Part shown: positions 1 to 12,171 of the stretch, one piece after another
Numbering within the stretch: the first letter of the stretch is position 1
How the letters are laid out: each line of letters starts with the position of its first letter
From: Alphaproteobacteria bacterium
GTDB taxonomy: Bacteria; Pseudomonadota; Alphaproteobacteria; Rs-D84
Length of the DNA: 12,171 bases
Assembly (NCBI GenBank): GCA_017383325.1
Contig: JAFNYG010000007.1
Location: 1-12,171, forward strand
Direction of reading: 5' to 3'
Translations under genes and position numbers: made by a program
The notes under the pieces: generated by a model
Databases searched by the model: none
What the model saw: the letters and a program-made list of their open reading frames with translations, nothing else
Told to the model about the DNA's origin: nothing

Positions 1-1296
1 ACATTTTTGCATAACGATTTTCTAAAGCGCATGTTCCTGGCAAACGGATATGATGTACGTCATGTTATGAATATTACTGATGTAGGTCATCTGACCAACG
101 ACGAAGATGATTCTGGCGAAGACAAGATGGAAAAAGGTGCCGCCCGTGATAATAAGTCGGTATGGGATATCGCAAAATTTTATAAAGACGAATTTTTGCG
201 TGACTTTAATGATTTGAACATGATTGCGCCAACAGTAATGCCACATGCCACAGATTATATCGCCGAACAAATAGAATTGGTCCAGAAATTGCAAGAATTG
301 GGGTATACCTATGAAATTCCAGGCGATGGAATTTACTATGATACGTCGAAGTTTGCGGCATATGGTGCGTTGACGGGTGGTTCGTTGTCGGGCAATCGTG
401 CGGGCGCGCGTGTTGGTTTTAATGACGCAAAGCGCAACCCATCGGACTTTGCGCTGTGGAAGTATTCTCCAACGGATACCAAACGTCAAATGGAATGGGA
501 CAGCCCCTGGGGCGTTGGGTTCCCTGGTTGGCATGCGGAATGCAGCGCCATGAGCATGAAATTACTGGGCGCCCATTTTGATATCCATACTGGTGGCGAA
601 GATCTGTCGCGTGTCCATCATGCGAATGAAATCGCGCAAAGCGAACCGATAACCGGGGCGCCATGGGTTAACACATGGCTGCATTACAGTTTCTTATTAG
701 ATAAATCTGGTGAAAAAATGGCCAAGTCTAAGGGCGAATTCCTGGGGATGGATGCCGTTCGTACACGTGGCTATGACCCAATGGTGTACCGTTATTTTGT
801 TGCCATGGGGCACTATCAGTCCCAGTTGGCGTTTTCGTGGGAAACCATGGATGCAACGGCAAAAAGCTATGTAAATCTGATACGTCGCGTGGCGGATTTG
901 TTGGACGCAGAAAATAGCCCCATTAACGATGTTATCTATGGTAAATGGCATGATGATATGCTGGGGGCGATGTCCGATAATCTGAAAACAGCATCTGTTC
1001 TGGTTTTGACCCAGGAATTTATAAAGTCGACCGACATAGATGACGCAACAAAGTTGGCGTTGGTTCGCTTTGCAGACGATTTATTGGGATTGCAATTGGT
1101 TGACCGTGCACAAAAGCTGCGTGCGCTGGAACGCGAAAGTGCGCCATCTGAAATTGTCGCGTTGGCCGAGGCTCGCGCCACAGCCAAGATGAACAAAGAT
1201 TGGGCAACGGCGGATCGACTGCGTTCTGAAATCGAGGACGCCGGTTGGTCAGTTTTAGATGCCAAAGAAGGTTATAAAATCGTTAAACGTACATAG
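1..1296 (+). CDS. cysS: Cysteinyl-tRNA synthetase, N-terminally cut by window edge
   Basis: Class Ia synthetase that activates cysteine and loads it onto tRNA-Cys in the cytoplasm. The frame is open from base 1, so the first roughly 35 residues, with the first zinc cysteine and the HIGH motif, lie off the left edge; a TTG at position 7 is not the true start. Visible landmarks are NITDVGHLT near the start, the GWHAECSAM segment (zinc-ligand Cys), DIHTGGEDLSRVHHANEIAQSE (zinc-ligand His and Glu), and a KMAKS version of the KMSKS loop. The C-terminus has the helical tail with a 'W..AD.LR..I...G' signature. Wording such as ITDVGHLT, GEDKMEKGA and DIHTGGxD is that of the CysS subtype I associate with CPR/Patescibacteria and some other bacteria; the E. 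coli form reads HGGGSDL at that point. The product call is secure; the subtype statement is from memory. Confidence 0.96.
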   Translation, partial: TFLHNDFLKRMFLANGYDVRHVMNITDVGHLTNDEDDSGEDKMEKGAARDNKSVWDIAKFYKDEFLRDFNDLNMIAPTVMPHATDYIAEQIELVQKLQELGYTYEIPGDGIYYDTSKFAAYGALTGGSLSGNRAGARVGFNDAKRNPSDFALWKYSPTDTKRQMEWDSPWGVGFPGWHAECSAMSMKLLGAHFDIHTGGEDLSRVHHANEIAQSEPITGAPWVNTWLHYSFLLDKSGEKMAKSKGEFLGMDAVRTRGYDPMVYRYFVAMGHYQSQLAFSWETMDATAKSYVNLIRRVADLLDAENSPINDVIYGKWHDDMLGAMSDNLKTASVLVLTQEFIKSTDIDDATKLALVRFADDLLGLQLVDRAQKLRALERESAPSEIVALAEARATAKMNKDWATADRLRSEIEDAGWSVLDAKEGYKIVKRT

Positions 1297-1329
1297 ATTG
1301 CTAAAAACACAAATAAAAATAAAAATCGG

Positions 1330-1358
1330 TTGAAATTGGGGCAATATTGGTGTATATT
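1330..1358 (+). promoter_or_regulatory. Sigma-70-type promoter for trcR-rpoD
   Basis: TTGAAA at 1330-1335 and TATATT at 1353-1358 are separated by exactly 17 bp, which is ideal spacing. Transcription would start near 1365, about 23 bases before the trcR ATG. A ribosome binding site AGAGGAA lies at 1375-1381. This is the only good promoter I see between cysS and rpoD, so it probably drives both trcR and rpoD. Confidence 0.6.
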
Positions 1359-1364
1359 GCCCCA
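1337..1364. promoter_or_regulatory. Perfect 11-bp inverted repeat over the -10 box
   Basis: TGGGGCAATAT at 1337-1347 is the exact reverse complement of ATATTGCCCCA at 1354-1364, with a 6-base centre. The right arm contains most of the -10 hexamer of the trcR promoter and the left arm fills its spacer. There is no T-run after it, so it is a poor intrinsic terminator for cysS. The position suits an operator for a dimeric repressor; the regulator is unknown. Confidence 0.5.
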
Positions 1365-1387
1365 CGTTAACAATAGAGGAAATTTCC

Positions 1388-1942
1388 ATGAACTATCCAT
1401 ATATGCCGAAATCAACAGCGCTGTGGTTAATTGAAAACACAGCATTGACGTTTGAACAAATAGCGGAATTCTGCGGCCTGCATGAGTTAGAGGTTAAAAA
1501 TATCGCAGATGCAGAAACATATAAAATTCAACCATTAAATCCGGTTCTAAGCGGCCAATTAACACGTGAAGACATCGAAAAATGCGAAGCTGACCCAGCT
1601 GCCCGCCTGACATTGCGCCGTGAAATTGTTGATGCGCAACAGAAACAGAACAAACGTGGCGTTGGTTATACACCAAAATTACATCGTCAGAACCGTTTGG
1701 GCGGTATTTTGTGGATTTTGAAAAACTATCCAGAATTATCCGATGGCCAGGTCGCGCGCCTGATGCGCAGTACGAACCCAACAGTTGCATCTGTTCGCAA
1801 TAAAACACACGCATCTTATTCGATTATTCAAATACAAAGTCCAATTGTATTGGGATTGGTGTCTGAATCTGCGATACATGATGCTGTGGCCAAAGCACAA
1901 AAAGCGGCATCCGCACCAAAAAAGAAAAGCAAAAAGAAATAA
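1388..1942 (+). CDS. trcR: TrcR-family (DUF1013) cell-cycle transcriptional regulator
   Basis: A 184-residue protein recognised as the alphaproteobacterial DUF1013 family, now named for the cell-cycle transcriptional regulator TrcR. The family signature near the N-terminus is clear: MPKSTALWLIENTALTFEQI at residues 6-25, then AEFCGLHELEV. There are two helix-turn-helix-like segments, about residues 21-40 and 118-139 (LSDGQVARLMRSTNPTVASV). The C-terminus is a lysine-rich tail (KKKSKKK), probably disordered and nucleic-acid-contacting. The ATG at 1388 has a good AGAGGAA site 6 bases upstream; an internal ATG at residue 6 matches where many relatives begin, so the true start could be five codons later. 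It is followed after 49 bases by rpoD and shares its promoter. A role as a DNA-binding regulator is known for the family; what it controls here is unknown. Confidence 0.87.
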   Translation: MNYPYMPKSTALWLIENTALTFEQIAEFCGLHELEVKNIADAETYKIQPLNPVLSGQLTREDIEKCEADPAARLTLRREIVDAQQKQNKRGVGYTPKLHRQNRLGGILWILKNYPELSDGQVARLMRSTNPTVASVRNKTHASYSIIQIQSPIVLGLVSESAIHDAVAKAQKAASAPKKKSKKK

Positions 1943-1991
1943 TTTTACCAAACCTTTGATACGAATATTAAAAACTGCGACGGGGTAATTA

Positions 1992-4073
1992 ATGGTTAAA
2001 AAATTAGACGAAGCAACACGTTTATTGATTGATTCTTTGCCAGAAAATCTACAAAAATTGGCGTATGGTGCGATTGAGGTTGGTTATATGTCGCGCATGG
2101 ATTTCACATCTGCAACCGAAGCAGACGAGGTGCCTGCCGATGAACACGATGAAGTGTTGGATTTTTTTCAGCAAGATTTGGGGCTTGAAATCTTGGAATC
2201 TGATAACTATCCCCAGGATTTAGACCGCTATTACGGAAACGACGAAGATGACGCGCCACGCGATAAAACACGTAATTTATTAAACGCCGATGCCGAGCAG
2301 GTTGATGTCAATGATGATGATTATGAACACTATGCCAAGCAGCTGGAACGCAGTCAGACGGGCTCATTGGTTTTGGGTGTCCAGGATTCTGTTCAATCAT
2401 ATCTGAAACAAATAGGGACTGTTCAATTGTTGACTGCCGCCGGCGAAGTCGCAATCGCCCAGCGTATCGAAGCTGCGTCCCGTCTCATGGTTTACGGGCT
2501 GTGTGAAAGCCCGATGACAATCCAAGCTATGTTGGACTGGTACCAGCAACTGTTAAACGAAGATGTTCGTTTGCGTTATATTGTCAATCTAGAAGTTATG
2601 TATTCCAGCGATTCTGAACAAAAACAGCTGGCGGCCCTGTCCGAGGCCTTGAAATCCAAGGGTGTTGAACATGTAGACGAATTGGACGATGATGACTTAG
2701 ATGATTTGGCCGATGCATCTGTCAGCGAAGATGAAGAAGAGGAAATCGACGAAGATGACGATGGTATAAAAAAAGAAGACACCCCACGTGGGACATCTGG
2801 GGTTCCAATTCCAGTTATGGAAGAGGCTCTGATGCCAATGGTTTTAGAATTGTTTGCTAAAATCAAACGTACGTTTAACAGCATGCAAAAACTGCAGGCA
2901 AAGCGTCTGGAAAATTTGCTGACTTCTGATACCCCAGATGTAGAACTGGAAAAGAAGTATACTAAATTGCGTTTGGAATTGTTTGAACATGTCAGCAAAA
3001 TTCGCTTGAACGACGATCGTGTCGCAGAAATCTTGGAACAGCTGACCAAGCGCGATCAATTGCTGATGGGATTGGAGGGTAAGTTATTACGTCTGGCCCT
3101 GGCTAACAAGATTAAACGCGAAGATTTTTTAAATGAATACACCGGGAACGAGATAAATCGCAACTGGGTAAAAAAACTGTCGAAGCATAAAAATTCAGCA
3201 TGGGCGAACTTTGCTAAAAAGCATGAGACGGATATTTTGAAAATCCAAGACGATATTACCGCGATTGTAACAGAAACAGGGCAGCCTACATCAGAATACA
3301 AAAAAGTTGTCGAATTGGTGCGTCGTGGCCAAGGCGAAGCAGCCCGTGCAAAGCGTGAAATGATTGAAGCAAACCTGCGCTTGGTCATCAAGTTTGCGAA
3401 AAAGTCCAGTAATCGTGGATTAGGATTAGATTTTTCGGATTTGGTCCAAGACGGAAATATCGGTTTGATGAAGGCTGTGGATAAATTTGATTATCGTTTG
3501 GGAAATAAATTCTCGACCTATGCGACGAACTGGATTCAACAGGGGATTTCCCGCAGCATTGCGGATCAGGCGCGCACAATTCGTATCCCTGTGCATATGA
3601 TTGATAATATTCACAAGATTCAACGTGCTACACGTCAGTTTATGCACAAATATGGTCGCCAGCCAACCGCCGAAGAATTGTCCAAGATTATCTATCTGCC
3701 GGTGGACAAGATTCACAAGGCTATGAAGGTCAATTTGAAACCAATCTCGTTAGAGGCACCCGTTGGCACCGAAGACGACAGTTCGCGCATTGAAATTATT
3801 GCGGACGAAACAGCAAAAAATCCGTTTACATCTGCTGCGCAAAAGAACCTGCGTAAAATTGTCACGCAAATTCTGTCTGAACTGGATCCCAAGGAAGAAA
3901 CCGTCCTGCGTCAGCGTTTTGGAATGTCGACAAACAAGACCAGCACCCTGGAAGAGGTTGGTGAATATATCGGCGTAACCCGTGAACGTATTCGTCAGAT
4001 AGAGCAAAAGGCACTGAACAAATTAAAACATCCAACCCGTGCCCGTAAGCTGCGCAGTTTCTTGGAAGATTAA
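1992..4073 (+). CDS. rpoD: RNA polymerase primary-type sigma factor (sigma-70)
   Basis: A 693-residue RpoD-type sigma factor that directs RNA polymerase to -10/-35 promoters. Order of parts: a region 1.1-like N-terminus (about residues 5-65), region 1.2 around [14 protein letters not shown] (135-148), a long non-conserved insert with a very acidic run (about 229-262), region 2 (455-535), region 3 (536-600) and region 4 (615-693). Region 4.2 carries [20 protein letters not shown], the -35 helix-turn-helix. Size and architecture match proteobacterial RpoD. Region 2.3/2.4 is unusual: against E. coli numbering, Y425 is Asn505, W433 is Asn513, R436 is Gln516 and T440 is Ser520, while Y430, W434, Q437 and R441 are kept. 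There are also two extra residues in [11 protein letters not shown]. The ATG has only a weak GGGGT upstream. If the genome has a second rpoD, this could be a divergent paralogue, but its place and size favour the main sigma. Confidence 0.94.
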
Positions 4074-4093
4074 ATAAAAAATGAGGTGCTGTC

Positions 4094-4480
4094 ATGATAA
4101 ATAAGTATAATTCCGCAACAAAGAAAATACAGGATATAATGACATTATATCAACAAATGGACAGCTTGCCAAACCGCACTCAGTGGTATTTCGAGCCACG
4201 ATATAAGGACGGAAATTCCTGTGCCTTCGTATTTGCGCATACGACGACAGATGTTTCAAAGCGTTACGATGATTTGAAAGTATTCGCAAATGTATTAGAC
4301 GGCGCTGGAATAGAATATTCTTTCATAGCTCGCGATGGAAAGATAGCGGATGTTATTATAAAACCAGAACATATGGATCTTGCACGAAAAATGTTTGCCA
4401 GGTATCAAACAGGCGGGCACAACACAGCAGGCAATGAGTCTCTGTTAGAACAAGAATGGTTGCGTCAACGTCAAAAATAA
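4094..4480 (+). CDS. Hypothetical protein, 128 aa, downstream of rpoD
   Basis: I do not recognise this protein. It starts 20 bases after the rpoD stop with a good GAGGTG ribosome binding site at 4083-4088, so it is probably co-transcribed with rpoD. Codon choice matches the neighbours, which supports a real gene. It is soluble, with no signal peptide or membrane segment. The N-terminal third looks helical (KKIQDIMTLYQQMDSL). The middle has alternating hydrophobic stretches (NSCAFVFAHTTT, IEYSFIARDGKIADVIIKPE) that suggest a small alpha/beta fold, and it ends in a charged helix (LLEQEWLRQRQK). A terminator-like hairpin starts 8 bases after the stop. No function is proposed. Confidence 0.75.
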   Translation: MINKYNSATKKIQDIMTLYQQMDSLPNRTQWYFEPRYKDGNSCAFVFAHTTTDVSKRYDDLKVFANVLDGAGIEYSFIARDGKIADVIIKPEHMDLARKMFARYQTGGHNTAGNESLLEQEWLRQRQK

Positions 4481-4487
4481 ATCATCT

Positions 4488-4520
4488 GAAAATCTGCTTT
4501 AACAGCAGATTTTCTTTAAT
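4488..4520 (+). terminator. Intrinsic terminator-like hairpin after the rpoD group
   Basis: GAAAATCTGCT at 4488-4498 pairs perfectly with AGCAGATTTTC at 4504-4514 across a 5-base loop (TTAAC), followed by TTTAAT. The 11-bp stem is AT-rich and the T-run is short and interrupted, so termination may be partial. It ends the trcR-rpoD-hypothetical group. The next gene starts at 4536 with no room for a separate promoter downstream of the hairpin, so either read-through or a promoter inside the previous gene feeds it. Confidence 0.6.
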
Positions 4521-4535
4521 GCAAGGGGTGTTTAA

Positions 4536-5132
4536 ATGAATAAGAACACGTTGTTATTTTGTAATGGGCTGTCGGGGTCTGGTAAAACATATTTTATCCA
4601 GAATACACTGCCGGCGGGTCTGTTTTATAATCTGCGCTCTGCGACCACGCGTCCTATGCGTGATGGTGAATCCGAAGGGTGTCCGTATTTTTTCCGTGAT
4701 GAAAATTATTTTGATGCCGCGCGACTGGCCACGCGTTTATGGGTAAATGAAAAAATCTGGACGCCCGGCACCCCTAAATGGCTCTACGGCATTCCAGAAT
4801 CTGAAATTATGGCGCACTTGGGTGAAAATCTGATTTATGACGTGATTGAACCGCGTTATTCCAGACAGTTGATTGACTGGTTCCAGAAAAACAATCTTGC
4901 GCGTCATTATAATTTTCGTGTGGCGTACTTTTTATCGCCGGAACAGAATTTGGAAACCGCGCGCGCACGGGCGAACATGCCAAATGATGCGGCGGTGCGT
5001 CGTACAAATACATGCGATCCGATTGATTTTCTAAACGCAGGGATTGATCCAGATTATATATTAATGCCACGTTGTGGTCTGTATAATTCGCGTCTGGCTG
5101 CACATATTAAACGTCTACAAACTCAACGCTAG
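4536..5132 (+). CDS. Guanylate-kinase-like P-loop protein
   Basis: A 198-residue protein with a Walker A motif at residues 11-18 (GLSGSGKT). Residues 37-53 (TTRPMRDGESEGCPYFF) fit the GMP-binding pattern TTRxxRxGExxGxxYxF of guanylate kinases. YGIPESEI (84-91) sits where guanylate kinases have YGTxxxxI, and the ending PDYILMPRCGLYNSRLAAHI (172-191) matches the last strand and helix of that fold. The lid is not typical: instead of SRRLxxRGxD there is ARARANMPNDAAVRRTNTCD. The length is close to Gmk (about 200 residues). It may phosphorylate a nucleoside monophosphate, but I would not call it the cell's Gmk. A ribosome binding site AAGGGG lies at 4523-4528. It stands alone between a hairpin and a 305-bp intergenic region. 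Confidence 0.72.
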   Translation: MNKNTLLFCNGLSGSGKTYFIQNTLPAGLFYNLRSATTRPMRDGESEGCPYFFRDENYFDAARLATRLWVNEKIWTPGTPKWLYGIPESEIMAHLGENLIYDVIEPRYSRQLIDWFQKNNLARHYNFRVAYFLSPEQNLETARARANMPNDAAVRRTNTCDPIDFLNAGIDPDYILMPRCGLYNSRLAAHIKRLQTQR

Positions 5133-5249
5133 CATATTGGGGACTTGTAATTGCAATAAATACAATTTTATGATATTTCGGTCCCCTGCCTTGTGACGGT
5201 ACAAATATTGCACAACATACGATAAAAACAAATAAAAATTATCTTGGTA

Positions 5250-5278
5250 TTGAAATCTTAACTGATACATACTACAAT
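5250..5278 (+). promoter_or_regulatory. Sigma-70-type promoter in the trpS upstream region
   Basis: TTGAAA at 5250-5255 and TACAAT at 5273-5278 have a 17-bp spacer. The predicted start of transcription, about 5285, coincides with an ATG at 5286. AACTGAT at 5260-5266 (in the spacer) and ATCAGTT at 5293-5299 form a 7-bp inverted repeat flanking the -10 and start site, which may be a regulatory site or chance. Confidence 0.5.
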
Positions 5279-5285
5279 ACACAAT

Positions 5286-5342
5286 ATGTTGAATCAGTTC
5301 TTGAATTTTTTATGCATTAATTGTTGGCGCGTTGCCGCCTGA
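5286..5342 (+). CDS. Possible 18-aa leader peptide upstream of trpS
   Basis: ATG at 5286 opens an 18-codon frame reading MLNQFLNFLCINCWRVAA and ending in TGA. The ATG lies at the predicted transcription start of the promoter at 5250-5278, so the message would be leaderless. It has one Trp and two Cys codons near its end. GGCG at 5326-5329 inside the ORF can pair with CGCC at 5336-5339; that CGCC could instead pair with GGCG at 5367-5370, giving two exclusive hairpins as in attenuators. One Trp codon is few for classical attenuation. Such short ORFs also arise by chance, so this is only a candidate. Confidence 0.2.
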   Translation: MLNQFLNFLCINCWRVAA

Positions 5343-5349
5343 TATGTTT

Positions 5350-5377
5350 TTGTGCACTGGCACCGGGGCGTTATAAA
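5350..5377 (+). promoter_or_regulatory. Possible trpS-proximal promoter
   Basis: TTGTGC at 5350-5355 and TATAAA at 5372-5377 with a 16-bp spacer, ending about 60 bases before the trpS ATG. The -35 is a weak match. It overlaps a small GTGC/GCAC hairpin (5352-5363). It could drive the trpS-SIMPL-xerC group together with, or instead of, the promoter at 5250. Confidence 0.35.
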
Positions 5378-5437
5378 TTAGGGCTTTTAATTTTTTCAAA
5401 AATTCATTAAAATCAGATACAAGCAAAGGTATATATT

Positions 5438-6436
5438 ATGTCAAACACAGATAAAATTGTTTTAACGGGTATCAAGCCCACAGGTATGCCACACCTGGGC
5501 AACTATATTGGCGCGCTAAAGCCACTGATTGAACAGTCCAAGACGCATAAAACATTTATGTTTATTGCAGACCTGCATGCGTTGAACACAATCCATGATG
5601 CATCTGAAATACGGAAACATACGTATGAAATCGCCGCATTGTTGATTGCGTTGGGGTTAAATCTTGAAAATGCGGTATTGTTTCGTCAATCTGACATTGA
5701 TGAAATATATCAGTTGAATACACTGCTGATGAATGTCACGCCCAAGGGTTTGATGAACCGTGCACATTCGTACAAGGCGGCGATGGATAAAAACATGGCT
5801 GCGGGTCTGGACGTTGACGCAGGTATTAACATGGGGTTATATACATATCCTATTTTGATGACGGCTGATATCTTGTTATACAATTCGGATATTGTGCCGG
5901 TTGGCGCGGACCAGAAACAGCATGTTGAATTTGCGCGTGATATTGCGGAATACTTTGATCGCACATACGGCAAAACGTTTAAATTGCCAGAACCTGTAAT
6001 TGGTTCCGACACAGGAATCATCCCAGGCCTGGACGGCCGTAAAATGAGCAAGTCTTATGATAACACAATCCCGCTGTTCGCAGACGAAGGCGCGTTAAAG
6101 AAAAAAATTATGCGTATCATTACGGATTCTAAACTGCCCGCGGATAAAAAGGATCCGGACGAATCCACGATTTATCAGTTATACAAACACTTTGCAACCG
6201 CGGAACAAACGTCCGAATTTGCCGAACGGTTTCGTGCCGGTGGCATGGGATATGGCGATGCAAAAAAGATTTTGTTTGAACAAATCAATTCGGTATTGTC
6301 GGGGCCGCGCGCAGAATACGAACGTTTGATGGCAAACCCAAATGAAATCGACGCGATTTTGGAATCTGGGGCAAATCGTGCACGCATTGTTGCAACGGAA
6401 ACGTTGGCGCGTGTAAAAAAAGCAATGCTGGGATAA
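5438..6436 (+). CDS. trpS: Tryptophanyl-tRNA synthetase
   Basis: Class Ic synthetase (332 residues, normal length) that charges tRNA-Trp with tryptophan using ATP. It has PTGMPHLGN at residues 14-22 (the HIGH-equivalent), IADLHALN at 43-50, the YPILMTADILLY stretch (137-148) with the tryptophan-recognising aspartate at 144, VPVGADQKQHVE (153-164), and KMSKS at 202-206. The segment TPKGLMNRAHSYKAAMDKN and AGINMGLYTYP is typical of one branch of bacterial TrpS rather than the compact E. coli form. The start is supported by conservation of the N-terminal strand; an AAAGG lies 8 bases upstream. It begins a close-packed group with the SIMPL gene (21-base gap) and xerC. Confidence 0.97.
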   Translation: MSNTDKIVLTGIKPTGMPHLGNYIGALKPLIEQSKTHKTFMFIADLHALNTIHDASEIRKHTYEIAALLIALGLNLENAVLFRQSDIDEIYQLNTLLMNVTPKGLMNRAHSYKAAMDKNMAAGLDVDAGINMGLYTYPILMTADILLYNSDIVPVGADQKQHVEFARDIAEYFDRTYGKTFKLPEPVIGSDTGIIPGLDGRKMSKSYDNTIPLFADEGALKKKIMRIITDSKLPADKKDPDESTIYQLYKHFATAEQTSEFAERFRAGGMGYGDAKKILFEQINSVLSGPRAEYERLMANPNEIDAILESGANRARIVATETLARVKKAMLG

Positions 6437-6457
6437 TAAACCAAGGGGGGATAAGGA

Positions 6458-7189
6458 ATGAAAAAAACATTTATTTGGATTGGAACTGTTATTGGCGCAG
6501 CCGCAGTTTTGGCATTGGTGTTTGGCGCACTGGAACGGCATGATGTGCCACGCACGGTTGCGGTAAATGGCGAATGTCTGACAACGGTTCCGCGCGATAA
6601 AACGGCCATTACATTGCGTGTGACAACATTGGCGCCAACGGCCGTGGCGTCTATGCGTGCGGCGACTGCGCAAATGGCACAAATAACCCAGTATTTAAAG
6701 TCCCAGCCGGTTGAAATGCAAACGACCCAGTTTAATTCTTATGAAAAAACAGAATGGAATCGCGATGAACAAAAGTCTGTAACATTAGGAATTGAAACAA
6801 CGGTCGCGGTTGAGGTTTCTGCAAACAGTATCGACACGATTGAAGGGATATTGTCGCAATTTGCACAATCGCCGAACGTGTTTTCTGAAAATTTACGCAT
6901 GTATACCAGTCCCCAGGCACTAAAACCTGTGATGGAAGAATGCTTGTCGGTCGCGGTTGAAAACGCGCGTACGCGTGCCAACGCGCTTGCCGCTGGCGAT
7001 GGTCGTCGTGCGGGCAAATTATTGTCGGTGTCATACGGCGCGAATTCAGATAATATTACGCACCCTGAAAACACCTTGTTGCGAACCAAGATGGTTACCA
7101 CTTCTGCCATGGCGGATGCTGGCGGTACGATTGTGTCGCGCGATACAGACGTATCTGTATCTGTAACTGCGGTATTCGAAATAAAATAG
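6458..7189 (+). CDS. SIMPL-domain (DUF541) membrane-anchored protein
   Basis: A 243-residue protein with an uncleaved-looking N-terminal membrane segment (about residues 4-25, after KK), then a periplasmic SIMPL/DUF541 domain. Family signs are the opening strand RTVAVNGECLTTVPRDKTAI (32-51), the block where bases of sub-/superscript-like strands follow (MQTTQFNSYEKTEW), an SPQALKPVMEECLSVAVENA helix, and a final strand VSVSVTAVFEIK. These proteins occur widely in Gram-negative envelopes; their molecular role is not well settled, with stress and outer-membrane links reported for relatives. A strong ribosome binding site AAGGGGGGATAAGG lies just upstream. It is 9 bases ahead of xerC and 21 after trpS, so it is probably co-transcribed with both, although no functional link is obvious. 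Confidence 0.85.
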   Translation: MKKTFIWIGTVIGAAAVLALVFGALERHDVPRTVAVNGECLTTVPRDKTAITLRVTTLAPTAVASMRAATAQMAQITQYLKSQPVEMQTTQFNSYEKTEWNRDEQKSVTLGIETTVAVEVSANSIDTIEGILSQFAQSPNVFSENLRMYTSPQALKPVMEECLSVAVENARTRANALAAGDGRRAGKLLSVSYGANSDNITHPENTLLRTKMVTTSAMADAGGTIVSRDTDVSVSVTAVFEIK

Positions 7190-7198
7190 GGTGCACAA

Positions 7199-8125
7199 AT
7201 GAATGATGTGGTCGCAGAATTTCTGGGGTATTTAACGGGGGTGAAAAACTATTCTCCACATACTGCGGCCGCATACGAAAAAGATATTTGTGATTTTTTA
7301 TCATTCTATGAACGTTTTAATGGCGCGACGGCATTTCCGTCGGATTTATCGCGCGCAGACACAATATGTTTTCGCGCATTCCTGGCCGAACGCCAGCGCC
7401 GTGGCCTGTCTGCAAAATCGACGGCGCGTGCATTGTCGTCTTTACGCAGTTTTTTCAGATTCCTGGCAAAAAATTATGATGTAAAAAACGATGCGATATC
7501 GCTGATTGTTTCGCCCAAGGTCCCCCGAAAGTTGTCCAAGGCAATTGATCCTATTGATGTTGAAAACATGCATGATGCTATACGAACAATTGATGCATGC
7601 GCGCCATGGGTTGCAGCACGCGATTGGGCGTTGGTTGTGTTGTTGTTCGGCTGTGGTCTGCGAATATCCGAAGCGCTGGCTTTGCGCAATCGCGACGTTG
7701 CCTCCCGCCCAGACGTGTTGCGCATCTTGGGCAAGGGTGGCAAAGAACGTCTGGTGCCGGTCTTGCCGGCCGTGTGGACGGCGATTGACAGATATACTGC
7801 TGTGCGACCATTCGGAAACATGGCGGACGATGTGTTGTTTCGCAGTGTTCGCGGTTTGCCCATGTCACCCCGCATGGCGCAAAAGGTTGTGGAATCCCTG
7901 CGGCATTACCTGCAGTTGCCGGATTATGTAACGCCACATGCCCTGCGTCACACATTTGCAACGGCACTGTTGGCGGGTGGGGCGGATTTGCGCAGCTTGC
8001 AAGAATTGCTGGGGCATTCTTCTTTGTCTACGACCCAATTGTATACCAAGGTAAACATGGCGGAAATTTCCAGCATATACTCAAATGCACATCCGCGTGC
8101 ACATGACAAAAATCATACGTTTTAA
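7199..8125 (+). CDS. xerC: Tyrosine recombinase XerC
   Basis: A 308-residue site-specific tyrosine recombinase. With XerD it resolves chromosome dimers at dif during division. The N-terminal SAM-like core-binding domain (about 1-105) has the family start FLGYLTGVKNYSPHTAAAYE. The catalytic domain has the full set of active residues: Arg155 (GLRISEAL), Lys179 (GKGGKER), His247 and Arg250 (HALRHTFAT), His273 (LLGHSSLSTTQ) and the nucleophile Tyr282 (LYTKV). The C-terminal SNAHPRAH is typical of alphaproteobacterial XerC rather than XerD. The ATG follows the previous stop by 9 bases with GGGTG as its binding site. Length and motif set are complete, so it should be active. A phage or element integrase is unlikely: there are no mobile-element neighbours or attachment repeats. 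Confidence 0.93.
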   Translation: MNDVVAEFLGYLTGVKNYSPHTAAAYEKDICDFLSFYERFNGATAFPSDLSRADTICFRAFLAERQRRGLSAKSTARALSSLRSFFRFLAKNYDVKNDAISLIVSPKVPRKLSKAIDPIDVENMHDAIRTIDACAPWVAARDWALVVLLFGCGLRISEALALRNRDVASRPDVLRILGKGGKERLVPVLPAVWTAIDRYTAVRPFGNMADDVLFRSVRGLPMSPRMAQKVVESLRHYLQLPDYVTPHALRHTFATALLAGGADLRSLQELLGHSSLSTTQLYTKVNMAEISSIYSNAHPRAHDKNHTF

Positions 8126-8129
8126 TAAC

Positions 8130-8157
8130 TTGCAATACATTAAATATAATTTATAAT
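8130..8157 (+). promoter_or_regulatory. Promoter for pnp
   Basis: TTGCAA at 8130-8135 and a consensus TATAAT at 8152-8157 with a 16-bp spacer. It starts 4 bases after the xerC stop and lies about 112 bases before the pnp ATG, giving a leader of about 105 bases. A second TATAAT at 8145-8150 has no matching -35. Confidence 0.55.
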
Positions 8158-8170
8158 TCATTGGGCGAAG

Positions 8171-8210
8171 ATGAAATTGTTCATTTGTGCATTTTTGTAT
8201 TCAGAATGCA
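8171..8210 (+). promoter_or_regulatory. Two small hairpins in the pnp leader
   Basis: ATGAA (8171-8175) can pair with TTCAT (8180-8184), and TGCATTTT (8188-8195) with AGAATGCA (8203-8210) with one G-U pair. In E. coli a pnp leader hairpin is cut by RNase III and lets PNPase repress its own message. A similar use here is inference only; the stems are short. Confidence 0.3.
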
Positions 8211-8269
8211 GAAACGAATGATTTTTCTTCGTGAAATCAAAACTTGTAATAAAAAATGGAGATAAAAAA

Positions 8270-10468
8270 ATGGTATTTGGTTTATTCAAGAAAGATGAAA
8301 AGACTAAATTAAACAATCCAATCGTTGTTGAAATTCCGTACGGCAATACGACATTGCGTTTGGAAACAGGCCGTATGGCAAAGCAGGCAAATGGTTCTGT
8401 CTTGGCGACGTTGGGTGAAACGATGGTTTTGGCGACAGTATGTGCAGAAAAATCTGCAGTCGAAGGTCAAGATTTCTTCCCGCTGACGGTTGATTACCAG
8501 GAAAAGTTTGCGTCCGCTGGTCGTATCCCAGGTTCCCGCGATCGTCGCGAAGGCAAGGCATCAACCGCTGAAACATTGACTGCGCGCTTGATTGATCGTC
8601 CAATCCGCCCATTGTTCCCAGAAACTTTTAAGAACAAGGTCCAAATTATTGCCCAGGTATTCTCTTATGACAAAGTGAACCAGCCTGACATTTTGGCAAT
8701 GATTGCGTCAAGTGCGGCTTTGGCATTGTCTGGTGTTCCATTCCAGGGGCCAATTGGTGCCGCCCGTGTTGGATTTGCCGACGGTAAATATATTTTGAAC
8801 CCATCTAAAAAAGAAACCGAAGATTCCGAAATGGATTTGGTTGTTGCTGCGACCAAAGACGGTGTACTGATGGTTGAATCTGAAATTGGTGAACTGGATG
8901 AAAAGACTGTGTTGGGTGCGGTTAAATTTGGTTTTGACGCGCAACAGGCGGTTATCAACGCAATTAATGAACTGGCAGAACGTGCGGGCAAAGAACGCTG
9001 GGAAACACCTGAAAAGACCCCAGAACAGTTGACAATGGAATCTGACTTTGAACAATTTGCACCCGCGATTGAATCGGCCCTGCAAATCAAAGAAAAATTG
9101 GTGCGCTTGGAAACATTGGCGTCTATTCACGCAGATGCCAAGGCGCGTATCCCAGAATTATTCCCAGAATCAACCCGCGCCACATCTACATTGGAATCAT
9201 GGGCGGACGAAGTGGTTGAAAACCTGACTGCGCGTATCATGCGTGGCAACATTTTGGCGGGCAAACCACGTATCGACGGCCGTGACAACAAGACTGTACG
9301 TCCAATTGAAATTGAATTGGGTGTAATGCCACGCGCACATGGGTCTGCACTGTTTACACGCGGCGAAACCCAGGCCCTGGTATCATTGACATTGGGCGGG
9401 GGCAAAGACGCATTGCCAATCGAATCTTTGGACGGTTCCGAAGAACGCGATTTCATCCTGAACTATAATTTCCCAGGATATTCTGTTGGTGAATGCAAGG
9501 GGTTAAAGTCCCCAGGGCGTCGTGAAATTGGTCACGGCAACTTGGCATGGCGTGCGGTTCATCCAATGGTACCAAGCCGCGCTGAATTTGACTATGTGAT
9601 TCGCGTAGTATCTGACATTTTGGAATCGAACGGTTCATCATCTATGGCGACCACATGTGGTGCGACATTGGCTATGATGGACGGTGGTGTACCTATGAAA
9701 CGTCCAGTTGCGGGTATTGCGATGGGTCTGATTAAAGAAGGCGACGATTACGCGATTCTGACGGACATCTTGGGCGACGAAGACCACTTGGGCGACATGG
9801 ACTTTAAAGTAACGGGTACCGAAAAAGGTATCACCGCTACCCAAATGGACATCAAAGTAGATGGTTTGTCGTACGAAATTTTGGAAAAAGCATTGGAACA
9901 AGCACGCGAAGGTCGTATGCACATCTTGGGCAAAATCAAAGAAACCATCGCAGAACCTCGCGAAGACTTGAAACCTCACGCTCCTCGCATCGTTACCATG
10001 AACGTACCTAAAGATATGATTGGTGCTATCATTGGTCCTGGAGGCAAAATTATCCAAGCTATGCAAGCCGAAAGTGGTGCTACCATCTCAATCGAAGAAA
10101 GCGAAGATTGCGGTGTAGTAGAAATCGCTGCTTCTAACAAAGCGGCTATCGACTGTGCTGTAGCTAAAATCAAAGCCATTGTTGCCATTCCAGAGGTAGG
10201 CGAAACCTACGAAGCCAAAGTAAAATCAATTATGCCTTATGGCGCATTTGTTGAATTTATGCCTGGCAAAGAAGGTTTGTTGCACATCTCAGAAATTAGT
10301 TGGGAACGCATCGAAACCATGGAAACTGCTGGTTTGAAAGAAAACGATATGATTACCGTTAAATTGTTGGACATCGACAAAAAAACAGGTAAATTCAAAC
10401 TATCGCACAAAGTATTGACTCCTCGTCCACCTCGTGCTCCTAAAGCAGAAGCTCCTGCTGCCGAATAA
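8270..10468 (+). CDS. pnp: Polynucleotide phosphorylase (apparent two-phylum hybrid)
   Basis: A 732-residue PNPase, the trimeric 3'-to-5' phosphorolytic exoribonuclease of RNA decay. Order: first RNase PH domain (about 15-150), helical linker (about 240-325), second RNase PH domain (about 335-555) with FTRGETQ (362-368), GRREIGHGNL (416-425) and LGDEDHLGDMDF (501-512), KH domain with IIGPGGKIIQ (587-596), and S1 domain (about 644-715) with IMPYGAFVEF and GLLHISEI. The ATG at 8270 is chosen over an in-frame GTG at 8231 because GGAG at 8258-8261 lies 8 bases before it. Up to about residue 497 Pro is CCA in 20 of 26 cases and CTG is a common Leu codon; after it Pro is CCT in 11 of 13 and CTG is absent. 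The later part (VTGTEKGITATQMDIKVDGL) reads as Bacteroidetes. The frame is intact, but the gene is probably a join of two organisms' pnp genes. Confidence 0.93.
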   Translation: MVFGLFKKDEKTKLNNPIVVEIPYGNTTLRLETGRMAKQANGSVLATLGETMVLATVCAEKSAVEGQDFFPLTVDYQEKFASAGRIPGSRDRREGKASTAETLTARLIDRPIRPLFPETFKNKVQIIAQVFSYDKVNQPDILAMIASSAALALSGVPFQGPIGAARVGFADGKYILNPSKKETEDSEMDLVVAATKDGVLMVESEIGELDEKTVLGAVKFGFDAQQAVINAINELAERAGKERWETPEKTPEQLTMESDFEQFAPAIESALQIKEKLVRLETLASIHADAKARIPELFPESTRATSTLESWADEVVENLTARIMRGNILAGKPRIDGRDNKTVRPIEIELGVMPRAHGSALFTRGETQALVSLTLGGGKDALPIESLDGSEERDFILNYNFPGYSVGECKGLKSPGRREIGHGNLAWRAVHPMVPSRAEFDYVIRVVSDILESNGSSSMATTCGATLAMMDGGVPMKRPVAGIAMGLIKEGDDYAILTDILGDEDHLGDMDFKVTGTEKGITATQMDIKVDGLSYEILEKALEQAREGRMHILGKIKETIAEPREDLKPHAPRIVTMNVPKDMIGAIIGPGGKIIQAMQAESGATISIEESEDCGVVEIAASNKAAIDCAVAKIKAIVAIPEVGETYEAKVKSIMPYGAFVEFMPGKEGLLHISEISWERIETMETAGLKENDMITVKLLDIDKKTGKFKLSHKVLTPRPPRAPKAEAPAAE
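9761..9830. other. Junction of alphaproteobacterial and Bacteroidetes sequence
   Basis: The last in-frame CTG is at 9758-9760 and the first clearly Bacteroidetes-like wording (GITATQMDIKVDG) begins near 9827. Between them lies the near-invariant LGDEDHLGDMDF stretch, where two unrelated pnp genes could share enough identical bases to be joined by an assembler or by recombination. All sequence to the right, including the minus-strand gene, is of Bacteroidetes type. Confidence 0.75.
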
Positions 10469-10491
10469 TCGAGTGAGATAACTTTCACATA

Positions 10492-10529
10492 AAAAAATCG
10501 GGCCTGCAATCATACAGGTCCGATTTTTT
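10492..10529. terminator. Bidirectional intrinsic terminator between convergent genes
   Basis: A 15-bp stem pairs 10492-10506 with 10515-10529 across an 8-base loop, with one G-U pair. The core is ATCGGGCCTG against CAGGTCCGAT, bordered by an A-run on the left and a T-run on the right. It therefore works in both directions: 23 bases after the pnp stop and 26 beyond the stop of the minus-strand gene. Confidence 0.9.
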
Positions 10530-10555
10530 ATATTCGAGAGCAAAGAAACTACCTA

Positions 10556-12171
10556 CTATTCGATAGTTTCTGTATTCTTTACTTCTGCATTTTCCTCCGT
10601 TACGACGGGAGCTTGCTCGGTTATTGCGGGGACTTCCTCTGCCACAGCAGGCACATCCTCGGTCATTACGGGAGCTTCCTCTACAGCAGGCACATCCTCG
10701 GTCATTACGGGAGTTTCTTCTACAGCAGGCTCATCTTCTGTTATTACAGGCGTTTGCTCTGCTACCACTGGCACCTCTGCTAACTCTTTGGCTTTTTTAG
10801 CCGTCAATTTCTTTACATTATCCTTTGTCTTAAAGGTAAGCACGATACCTGCTTGCACATTAATAGCACTGGATCTATAAGGAATACCTTCGGCAGAATA
10901 ATACAAAGGTGTATAATCGGTTGCCACATAGAAGTTAAACGGAGGTAATTTCAAATCCAATCCAAAACCAAGCGTGGACCATCCGCCCGATACAAACGAG
11001 TAACCAGCCGAGATACCAAACCAGTGACAAGGACGAATTTTATAATTCAAGCTAACCTCTTCTGACACATAATTAGACATAAACTCGGTTTTAGAAAGCA
11101 AACCTACACTCATCATGTTACGCAAGAAACTATACTCGGCACCCACATACAATTTTCCGCGCATTTCTTGCACATAATGTGTTTTTTGTGGGTCATAAAG
11201 CATAGATGCATTAAAAGCTGCCGCCAACGAATCAACAAAATTAATTTGTTGGTCTCCAAAATAGAAACCTTCGTAATCACCATTAACTGACGATTGAGCC
11301 GCTACTACGTTATCCCAATACATAAAACCTATATCTTTCAGCGAAACGCTAATGCTCAATTCGGGCAAGGGTTTATATTCTAAGCCCAAATCGACGGCTG
11401 CACCCATACTGGGACGATAACACGAAAGCATACTCATAAAGTCACTAGAGGTAAATCCTGTAATACTTCCGTTTTCGTCCACCTCAACACCTAAACCTGG
11501 CACTGATAATAGCAGATTACTATTACCCTCTATGGTCCATTGCTGCGCAGAAGCCTCCAAATAAGCTTTATCGCTATACAAATCGGCAGCAAAAGCACCA
11601 ACCAACAAGTGCAAACGTCCACCTACCGACCATTTTTCGTTGATTTGATGCATATAACCAAATCCAAAATCAAAATAAGAACGTGCACTTACGGCTAACG
11701 AAGACAAATCGTATTTATTCACATTTACGGTATCAGGAGTGCCGTAAAATGCCAAAGAGAACAAATCCTTAGGCATACCTACCAACGCGTCGATACGTGC
11801 CGATGCATTGAACGAGAAATAGCCTTTTTCTTTGACCTTAAAACCGAAACCCAATACACTTACATCCACATCCGTCGAGAATCGACTGGTCGAACCTAAT
11901 TTAGCAAACAAGGCATCTTTGTTTCCATATTCAGGATGCAAAAAAGTCACCAACTTTCCGTCTTTGACATACATAAAATCGTTCAACGACAAGTTTCCTG
12001 TTCCCATCGATGCCGATATGGTAGAAAGACCAGGAAGCTCTACATACGTATCACTCATTGGACGTAAGGCAGGGTTTTGATACGTACGATACGGCAAAAT
12101 ATCCATAAAATACAAGGAATTGGGTGCCGCCGATGCCACTAACGTTACAAAACTAACCACAAGGGTCAATA
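10556..12171 (-). CDS. DUF5723-type outer-membrane beta-barrel protein, start off right edge
   Basis: 537 visible residues read leftward, cut at the N-terminus by the window edge; the leftmost codon is a TTG, so the true start lies outside. The visible N-terminus is the hydrophobic core of a signal peptide ending near LVASAAP. Next comes SLYFMDILPYRTYQNPALRP, the opening I know from Bacteroidetes DUF5723 proteins. The body is rich in alternating aromatic/glycine strands (GFGYMHQINEKWSVGGRLHL, LYVGAEYSFLRNMMSVGLLS, AGYSFVSGGWSTLGFGLDLK), consistent with a PorV/OmpA-like barrel. The last strand AINVQAGIVLTFKT is followed by a Lys-rich segment and a disordered acidic tail of PAVEE/PVMTED repeats. 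Its precise function is unknown. It converges on pnp and shares its terminator. It does not belong with the alphaproteobacterial genes to the left. Confidence 0.8.
   Translation of the reverse strand, partial: LTLVVSFVTLVASAAPNSLYFMDILPYRTYQNPALRPMSDTYVELPGLSTISASMGTGNLSLNDFMYVKDGKLVTFLHPEYGNKDALFAKLGSTSRFSTDVDVSVLGFGFKVKEKGYFSFNASARIDALVGMPKDLFSLAFYGTPDTVNVNKYDLSSLAVSARSYFDFGFGYMHQINEKWSVGGRLHLLVGAFAADLYSDKAYLEASAQQWTIEGNSNLLLSVPGLGVEVDENGSITGFTSSDFMSMLSCYRPSMGAAVDLGLEYKPLPELSISVSLKDIGFMYWDNVVAAQSSVNGDYEGFYFGDQQINFVDSLAAAFNASMLYDPQKTHYVQEMRGKLYVGAEYSFLRNMMSVGLLSKTEFMSNYVSEEVSLNYKIRPCHWFGISAGYSFVSGGWSTLGFGLDLKLPPFNFYVATDYTPLYYSAEGIPYRSSAINVQAGIVLTFKTKDNVKKLTAKKAKELAEVPVVAEQTPVITEDEPAVEETPVMTEDVPAVEEAPVMTEDVPAVAEEVPAITEQAPVVTEENAEVKNTETIE
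10611..10766 (-). repeat. Four 39-bp tandem units in the C-terminal tail
   Basis: Units begin at 10611, 10650, 10689 and 10728. The two central ones (10650 and 10689) are nearly identical, while the outer ones are degraded. On the coding strand each unit gives 13 residues of the type VPAVEEAPVMTED. The period is a multiple of three, so copy number can vary without frameshift. The tail is acidic and Pro/Val-rich, probably extended and disordered after the barrel. Confidence 0.85.

Follow-up and report, generated by a model that had tools for sequence, protein, structure and literature searches.

A pnp gene with an alphaproteobacterial 5′ part and a Bacteroidetes 3′ part on what is very probably a chimeric metagenomic contig

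Introduction

Does a polynucleotide phosphorylase gene (pnp) whose two parts come from different phyla belong to a living gut bacterium, or was it put together when a metagenome was assembled? The question is raised by a contig of 12,171 bases, here called the window and analysed over its whole length. An open frame of 732 aa on its forward strand (8270..10468, from an ATG at 8270) encodes the full PNPase set of Pfam domains, with two RNase_PH domains followed by PNPase, KH_1 and S1, and its product is by that content a polynucleotide phosphorylase. An earlier note, made from the sequence alone, had described a switch from alphaproteobacterial to Bacteroidetes sequence inside this one open frame, had placed the break in a near-invariant motif, and had considered chimeric assembly the likely cause.

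Results

When genome contigs were scanned with the full-length pnp protein, 98 stretches were confirmed and 80 loci kept, mostly Alphaproteobacteria MAGs, many of them ruminant-gut, together with some Paludibacteraceae. One kept locus titled Bacteroidales (L038; JAFZOY010000059.1, 3240 bases) has a pnp of ordinary alphaproteobacterial type, with identities of 85% and 44% to the two halves of the window gene, and is probably misbinned.

A placement by likelihood against distinct pnp loci, 74 from Alphaproteobacteria and 7 from Bacteroidetes (leaving out L065, L066 and L076, which belong to neither group, as well as L078, L079 and identical copies), puts the change of lineage between 9762 and 9822, within the open frame as had been claimed. 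The likelihood peaks at 9814 and stays within 2 log units of the peak at 9762-9763 and 9771-9823. Judged by eye from the table of sites, 9761 is the last strongly alphaproteobacterial base and 9823 the first strongly Bacteroidetes base, with weaker sites of both kinds between and after them (9832 and 9856, for example, lean to the left lineage). The gene can be divided on the forward strand into a 5′ part of alphaproteobacterial type (residues 1-497; 8270..9761), a join zone in the LGDEDHLGDMDFKVTGT region whose 61 bases can be assigned safely to neither side (9762..9822), and a 3′ part of Paludibacteraceae type that carries the KH and S1 domains (9823..10468). The join zone is the conserved motif LGDEDHLGDMDFKV (residues 498-518), which holds catalytic aspartates, and the change falls inside the very motif that the earlier note had named. 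This motif is identical in the solved PNPase 4am3_A, to which the pnp product aligns over residues 22-720.

An identity profile was computed in 90-nt steps after the gene had been aligned by codons with 13 of the 80 kept loci, and in it the crossover between lineages takes a single step. The eight alphaproteobacterial loci in this alignment are 70-96% identical to the window gene up to 9800 and 46-70% identical beyond it (L061, which ends just past the join, contributes one step there), and identity to the Paludibacteraceae loci L069-L071 is 31-79% before 9800 and 81-97% after it; L074 and L075 reach 64-87% after 9800.

Codon use gives a similar picture. The proline shift described before is exact, CCA standing in 20 of 26 residues before 9762 and CCT in 11 of 13 after it, and the reported loss of CTG holds as well, this codon serving 11 of 43 leucines before 9762 and 0 of 14 after; Fisher tests give P = 4e-4 (CCA), 1e-5 (CCT) and 0.05 (CTG). 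Synonymous codon choice in pnp has its strongest change point at 9764, with G = 133 against a maximum of 86 in 200 synonym-shuffled genes (the real gene was scanned at every codon, the shuffled genes at every third), and the codon change is thus far beyond chance. The comparison of tetranucleotide profiles that the earlier note had proposed revealed a strong difference between the left and right parts of the window (r = 0.30); as a control, seven pieces of the left part, each of the size of the right part, correlated with the rest of the left at r = 0.82-0.90. Seven alphaproteobacterial loci correlated at 0.81-0.96 with the left part and at 0.24-0.35 with the right. Because the right part correlated at only 0.44-0.64 with six Paludibacteraceae-side loci, and two of these (L074 and L075) resembled the left part more than the right, tetranucleotides show the break and place the right part poorly.

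The two halves of the protein were searched separately against 5.8 billion proteins, the best 120 of 8000 scored matches being taken per search, and their best relatives are disjoint. Among the matches listed, residues 1-500 are closest to P0002 (98%), whose 3′ part is only 45% identical, and residues 520-732 are closest to P0121 (100%), whose 5′ part is only 43% identical. The outcome that the earlier note had named as evidence against a gene of two origins, one and the same closest genome for both halves, thus did not occur. Other than the window's own protein (P0001), 0 of 238 proteins among the best 120 of 8000 per search exceeded 75% on both halves, so that the join was absent from other assemblies as far as the listed proteins go. 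Among the loci, the 5′ part is 97.8% identical in protein to L096, and the 3′ part is 95-96% identical to L069, L070, L071 and L099.

At the DNA level, we compared the window with two families of genomes, the alphaproteobacterial family of L061 (G006; 183 genomes; the left-hand family) and the Paludibacteraceae-side family of L071 (G003; 300 genomes; the right-hand family). Positions 8270-9770 were matched by 172 of the 183 left-hand genomes, the nearest being G026 at 89%, and positions 9815-12171 by 259 of the 300 right-hand genomes, the nearest being G001 and G003 at 91% in the pnp end. No DNA-level parent of either side was found among the genomes searched, these values (89% on the left, 91% at the right pnp end) being the nearest.

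The gene neighbourhood changes lineage at the same point as pnp. The alphaproteobacterial part of the contig (1..9761) contains, by Pfam, cysS (cut at base 1), TrcR, rpoD, two ORFs, trpS, SIMPL, an xer-type recombinase and the first two thirds of pnp; the order trpS-SIMPL-xer-pnp recurs in L096, L002 and L060, the three neighbours having 80-91% protein identity. To the right, a DUF5723 protein of 537 aa, its 5′ end cut by the end of the window, is encoded on the reverse strand (10556..12169; PF18990, E = 5e-89; 96% to P0240). A DUF5723 gene likewise adjoins pnp in convergent orientation in L069, L070, L071 and L099 (59-68% identity); the DNA nearest to the DUF5723 gene of the window is only 70-75% identical. 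The same query that found DUF5723 relatives in 275 of the 300 right-hand genomes, which served as a positive control, found them in 0 of the 183 genomes of the left-hand alphaproteobacterial family.

The longest exact words common to both lineages in pnp, of 31-34 bases, lie at the join. Within pnp, 45 of 59 common words of 24 bases start at 9750-9809 (with 17 more elsewhere in the loci), as do 16 of 18 words of 28 bases (9 more elsewhere) and 6 of 6 words of 31 bases (4 more elsewhere); no words of 35 bases are common to the two locus sets within pnp. These lengths of 31-34 bases come from relatives of both lineages and not from the two true parents; among those relatives, 31-base words are common to the two lineages in the 61-base zone of the join.

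Contigs of other genomes also end in this part of pnp. A pnp match was found in 173 of the 183 left-hand genomes (of the remainder, 3 gave no match at all and 7 gave none at E 1e-15), and a contig end lies inside pnp in 11 of the 173; genomes without a full-length match among those listed were looked up separately. In 5 of these 11 (G006, G066, G067, G085 and G130) the end falls within residues 492-530: the contig with the 5′ end stops at residue 530 in G006, G130 and G085, the contig of G067 stops at residue 492, and that of G066 starts at residue 499. Contig ends elsewhere in pnp are found in G011, G032, G077, G134, G171 and G188, and G006 has a second break, in a contig starting at residue 327. 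Since G006 and G011 have two break places each, there are 13 places over the 11 genomes. Residues 492-530 cover 39 of 712 residues, were delimited once the ends were known, and extend beyond the join zone; an end there in 5 of 11 genomes corresponds to a binomial P of 1.7e-4, and 5 of 13 places to a P of 4.4e-4. Counting only residues 498-518, the join zone itself, gives a less marked excess (3 of 13 places, P = 0.006). In G085 and G130 the remaining half of pnp was located on a second contig, which starts at residue 499 in G085 and at residue 514 in G130. In both split genes (L100 and L102, that is, G085:C54 and C35; L103 and L093, that is, G130:C54 and C33) the contig ends overlap in the motif at which the window is joined. 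G079 and G019 each gave two matched pieces of pnp; these lie on one contig with no contig end there, so neither genome was counted as broken.

We take the RGIG genomes to belong to the ruminant catalogue PMC8199421. Many of the 80 loci carry titles that name hosts of that catalogue, for which the accessible part of its description gives MEGAHIT and IDBA-UD assembly (PMC8199421).

Discussion

The window has two origins and passes from one to the other inside pnp, and it is very probably a chimeric metagenomic contig; the disjoint relatives of the two halves and the difference in tetranucleotides support the reading of the earlier note. We infer that the assembler, not a cell, made the join. A gut alphaproteobacterium would have contributed bases 1-9761, and a Bacteroidetes of Paludibacteraceae type bases 9823-12171; the DNA of these two organisms would be alike over the short, nearly invariant pnp motif at residues 498-518. 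Such a common stretch would form one node of the de Bruijn graph that two paths enter and two paths leave, and the assembler presumably took the wrong exit. The frame stays open across a false join of this kind because both genes read the same frame through the conserved motif. This chimeric-node mechanism of contig assembly is described in the accessible part of PMC8171044, in which a contig is counted as chimeric when its non-overlapping parts match different species. The parts of the window likewise have their best matches in different species, and the window resembles the interspecies chimeric contigs of short-read metagenomes described there in the apparent short common stretch at its join and in neighbours that switch too. 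It differs from them, as far as that account goes, in that they join evolutionarily similar species, whereas the parents here come from different phyla, and in that the apparent common stretch of the window is a protein motif that is conserved enough at the DNA level (PMC8171044).

A counterpoint is that the protein matching the right half at 100%, P0121, has the look of a mosaic as well, with an apparent break at about residues 380-400. Its residues 1-380 are at most 70% identical to any other fetched protein, and from residue 401 on it is 97-98% identical to its eight closest relatives (98% to P0122); it sits on one contig of 18589 bases. The databases consequently show this 3′ half, in P0001 and P0121, attached to two different 5′ halves. 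P0121 could reflect real recombination in pnp, or it could be a second bad join at an assembly hub.

It is very improbable that the window comes from a genuine cross-phylum recombinant, that is, from a gut bacterium that acquired from a Bacteroidetes the KH/S1 end of its pnp together with the next gene, or from an alphaproteobacterium the 5′ part of its pnp together with eight genes upstream. A living bacterium of this kind would combine an alphaproteobacterial catalytic core with a Bacteroidetes KH/S1 end recombined at the conserved core motif, and P0121 would be a second exchange of the same 3′ half, a picture to which we give just as little credence. The preserved open frame and a second apparent mosaic with this 3′ half are what such an origin would lead one to expect, and homologous recombination, like assembly, favours the longest common stretch. 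However, the transfer would require a tract of no less than 2.35 kb on the right or 9.7 kb on the left, and no donor tract embedded on both sides is seen within the window, the sequence not returning to the other lineage before the right part reaches the window end at 12171. Each flank retains the gene order of its own lineage, and the right-hand neighbour occurs in 0 of 183 alphaproteobacterial relatives. Moreover, the best full-length match to P0001 in the left-hand family is 84% identical over residues 1-712 and only 44% in the 3′ part, among the matches listed; P0001 was found on a single contig, that of 12171 bases, and is the only copy among the proteins listed; and the join would coincide with a place at which relatives' contigs are prone to end. 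A search of the literature for cross-phylum pnp genes, judged by the titles listed, found none.

A physical chimera made before assembly, by template switching or ligation while DNA was amplified or the library prepared, is about as improbable. It too would be expected at a common motif, but we reason that such molecules would be too rare among the reads to yield a contig of 12 kb, and the contig ends in relatives suggest that assemblers already stumble at this motif. Least credible is an origin in one organism only, through fast evolution or altered codon use in the 3′ half of an unusual pnp. This would account for the continuous frame, but a 3′ half with 95-96% protein identity to four loci of the Paludibacteraceae side, and 44-46% to the nearest alphaproteobacterial ones, is not drifted alphaproteobacterial sequence.

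Both halves of the gene are ordinary pnp, and together they carry the full domain set of polynucleotide phosphorylase, from which the gene differs in that its halves come from two lineages. Most likely, this chimeric pnp does not exist as a biological gene and is an artefact rather than a novel type of gene. It serves as a warning that a join at a motif whose DNA is conserved along with the protein leaves a frame that is open, plausible, normal in length and complete in its domains, and that escapes checks of frame and domains. Contigs of other left-hand genomes also end in this part of pnp, so pnp fusions and domain swaps from short-read assemblies deserve checking.

A further candidate chimera, G086:C7, in which the match stops at residue 617, was rejected: it is an alphaproteobacterial pnp missing a KH/S1 stretch, with no swap. 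Its frame (L094, 3427-5547; 706 aa from a TTG) is shorter in the KH/S1 part through either a deletion or an assembly slip. A megablast of the window's pnp gene against phage records gave no match, and no pattern was matched in viral contigs.

In the right-hand part, a terminator-like hairpin lies on the reverse strand between the convergent pnp and DUF5723 genes (10503..10518), weakly indicated because the scanned region held 2 such hairpins and shuffled sequences 2.8 on expectation. The part of the DUF5723 gene that encodes the C-terminal tail contains a tandem repeat of a 39-base unit in 3.3 copies (10616-10747), and the tail there is by eye abundant in Glu, Val, Pro and Thr. Between rpoD and trpS, the ORFs at 4094-4480 and 4536-5132 have no Pfam match. 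The second starts with a stretch, GLSGSGKT, that is P-loop-like by eye, and its residues 102-198 are 87% identical to L096, the remainder lying beyond the end of that locus.
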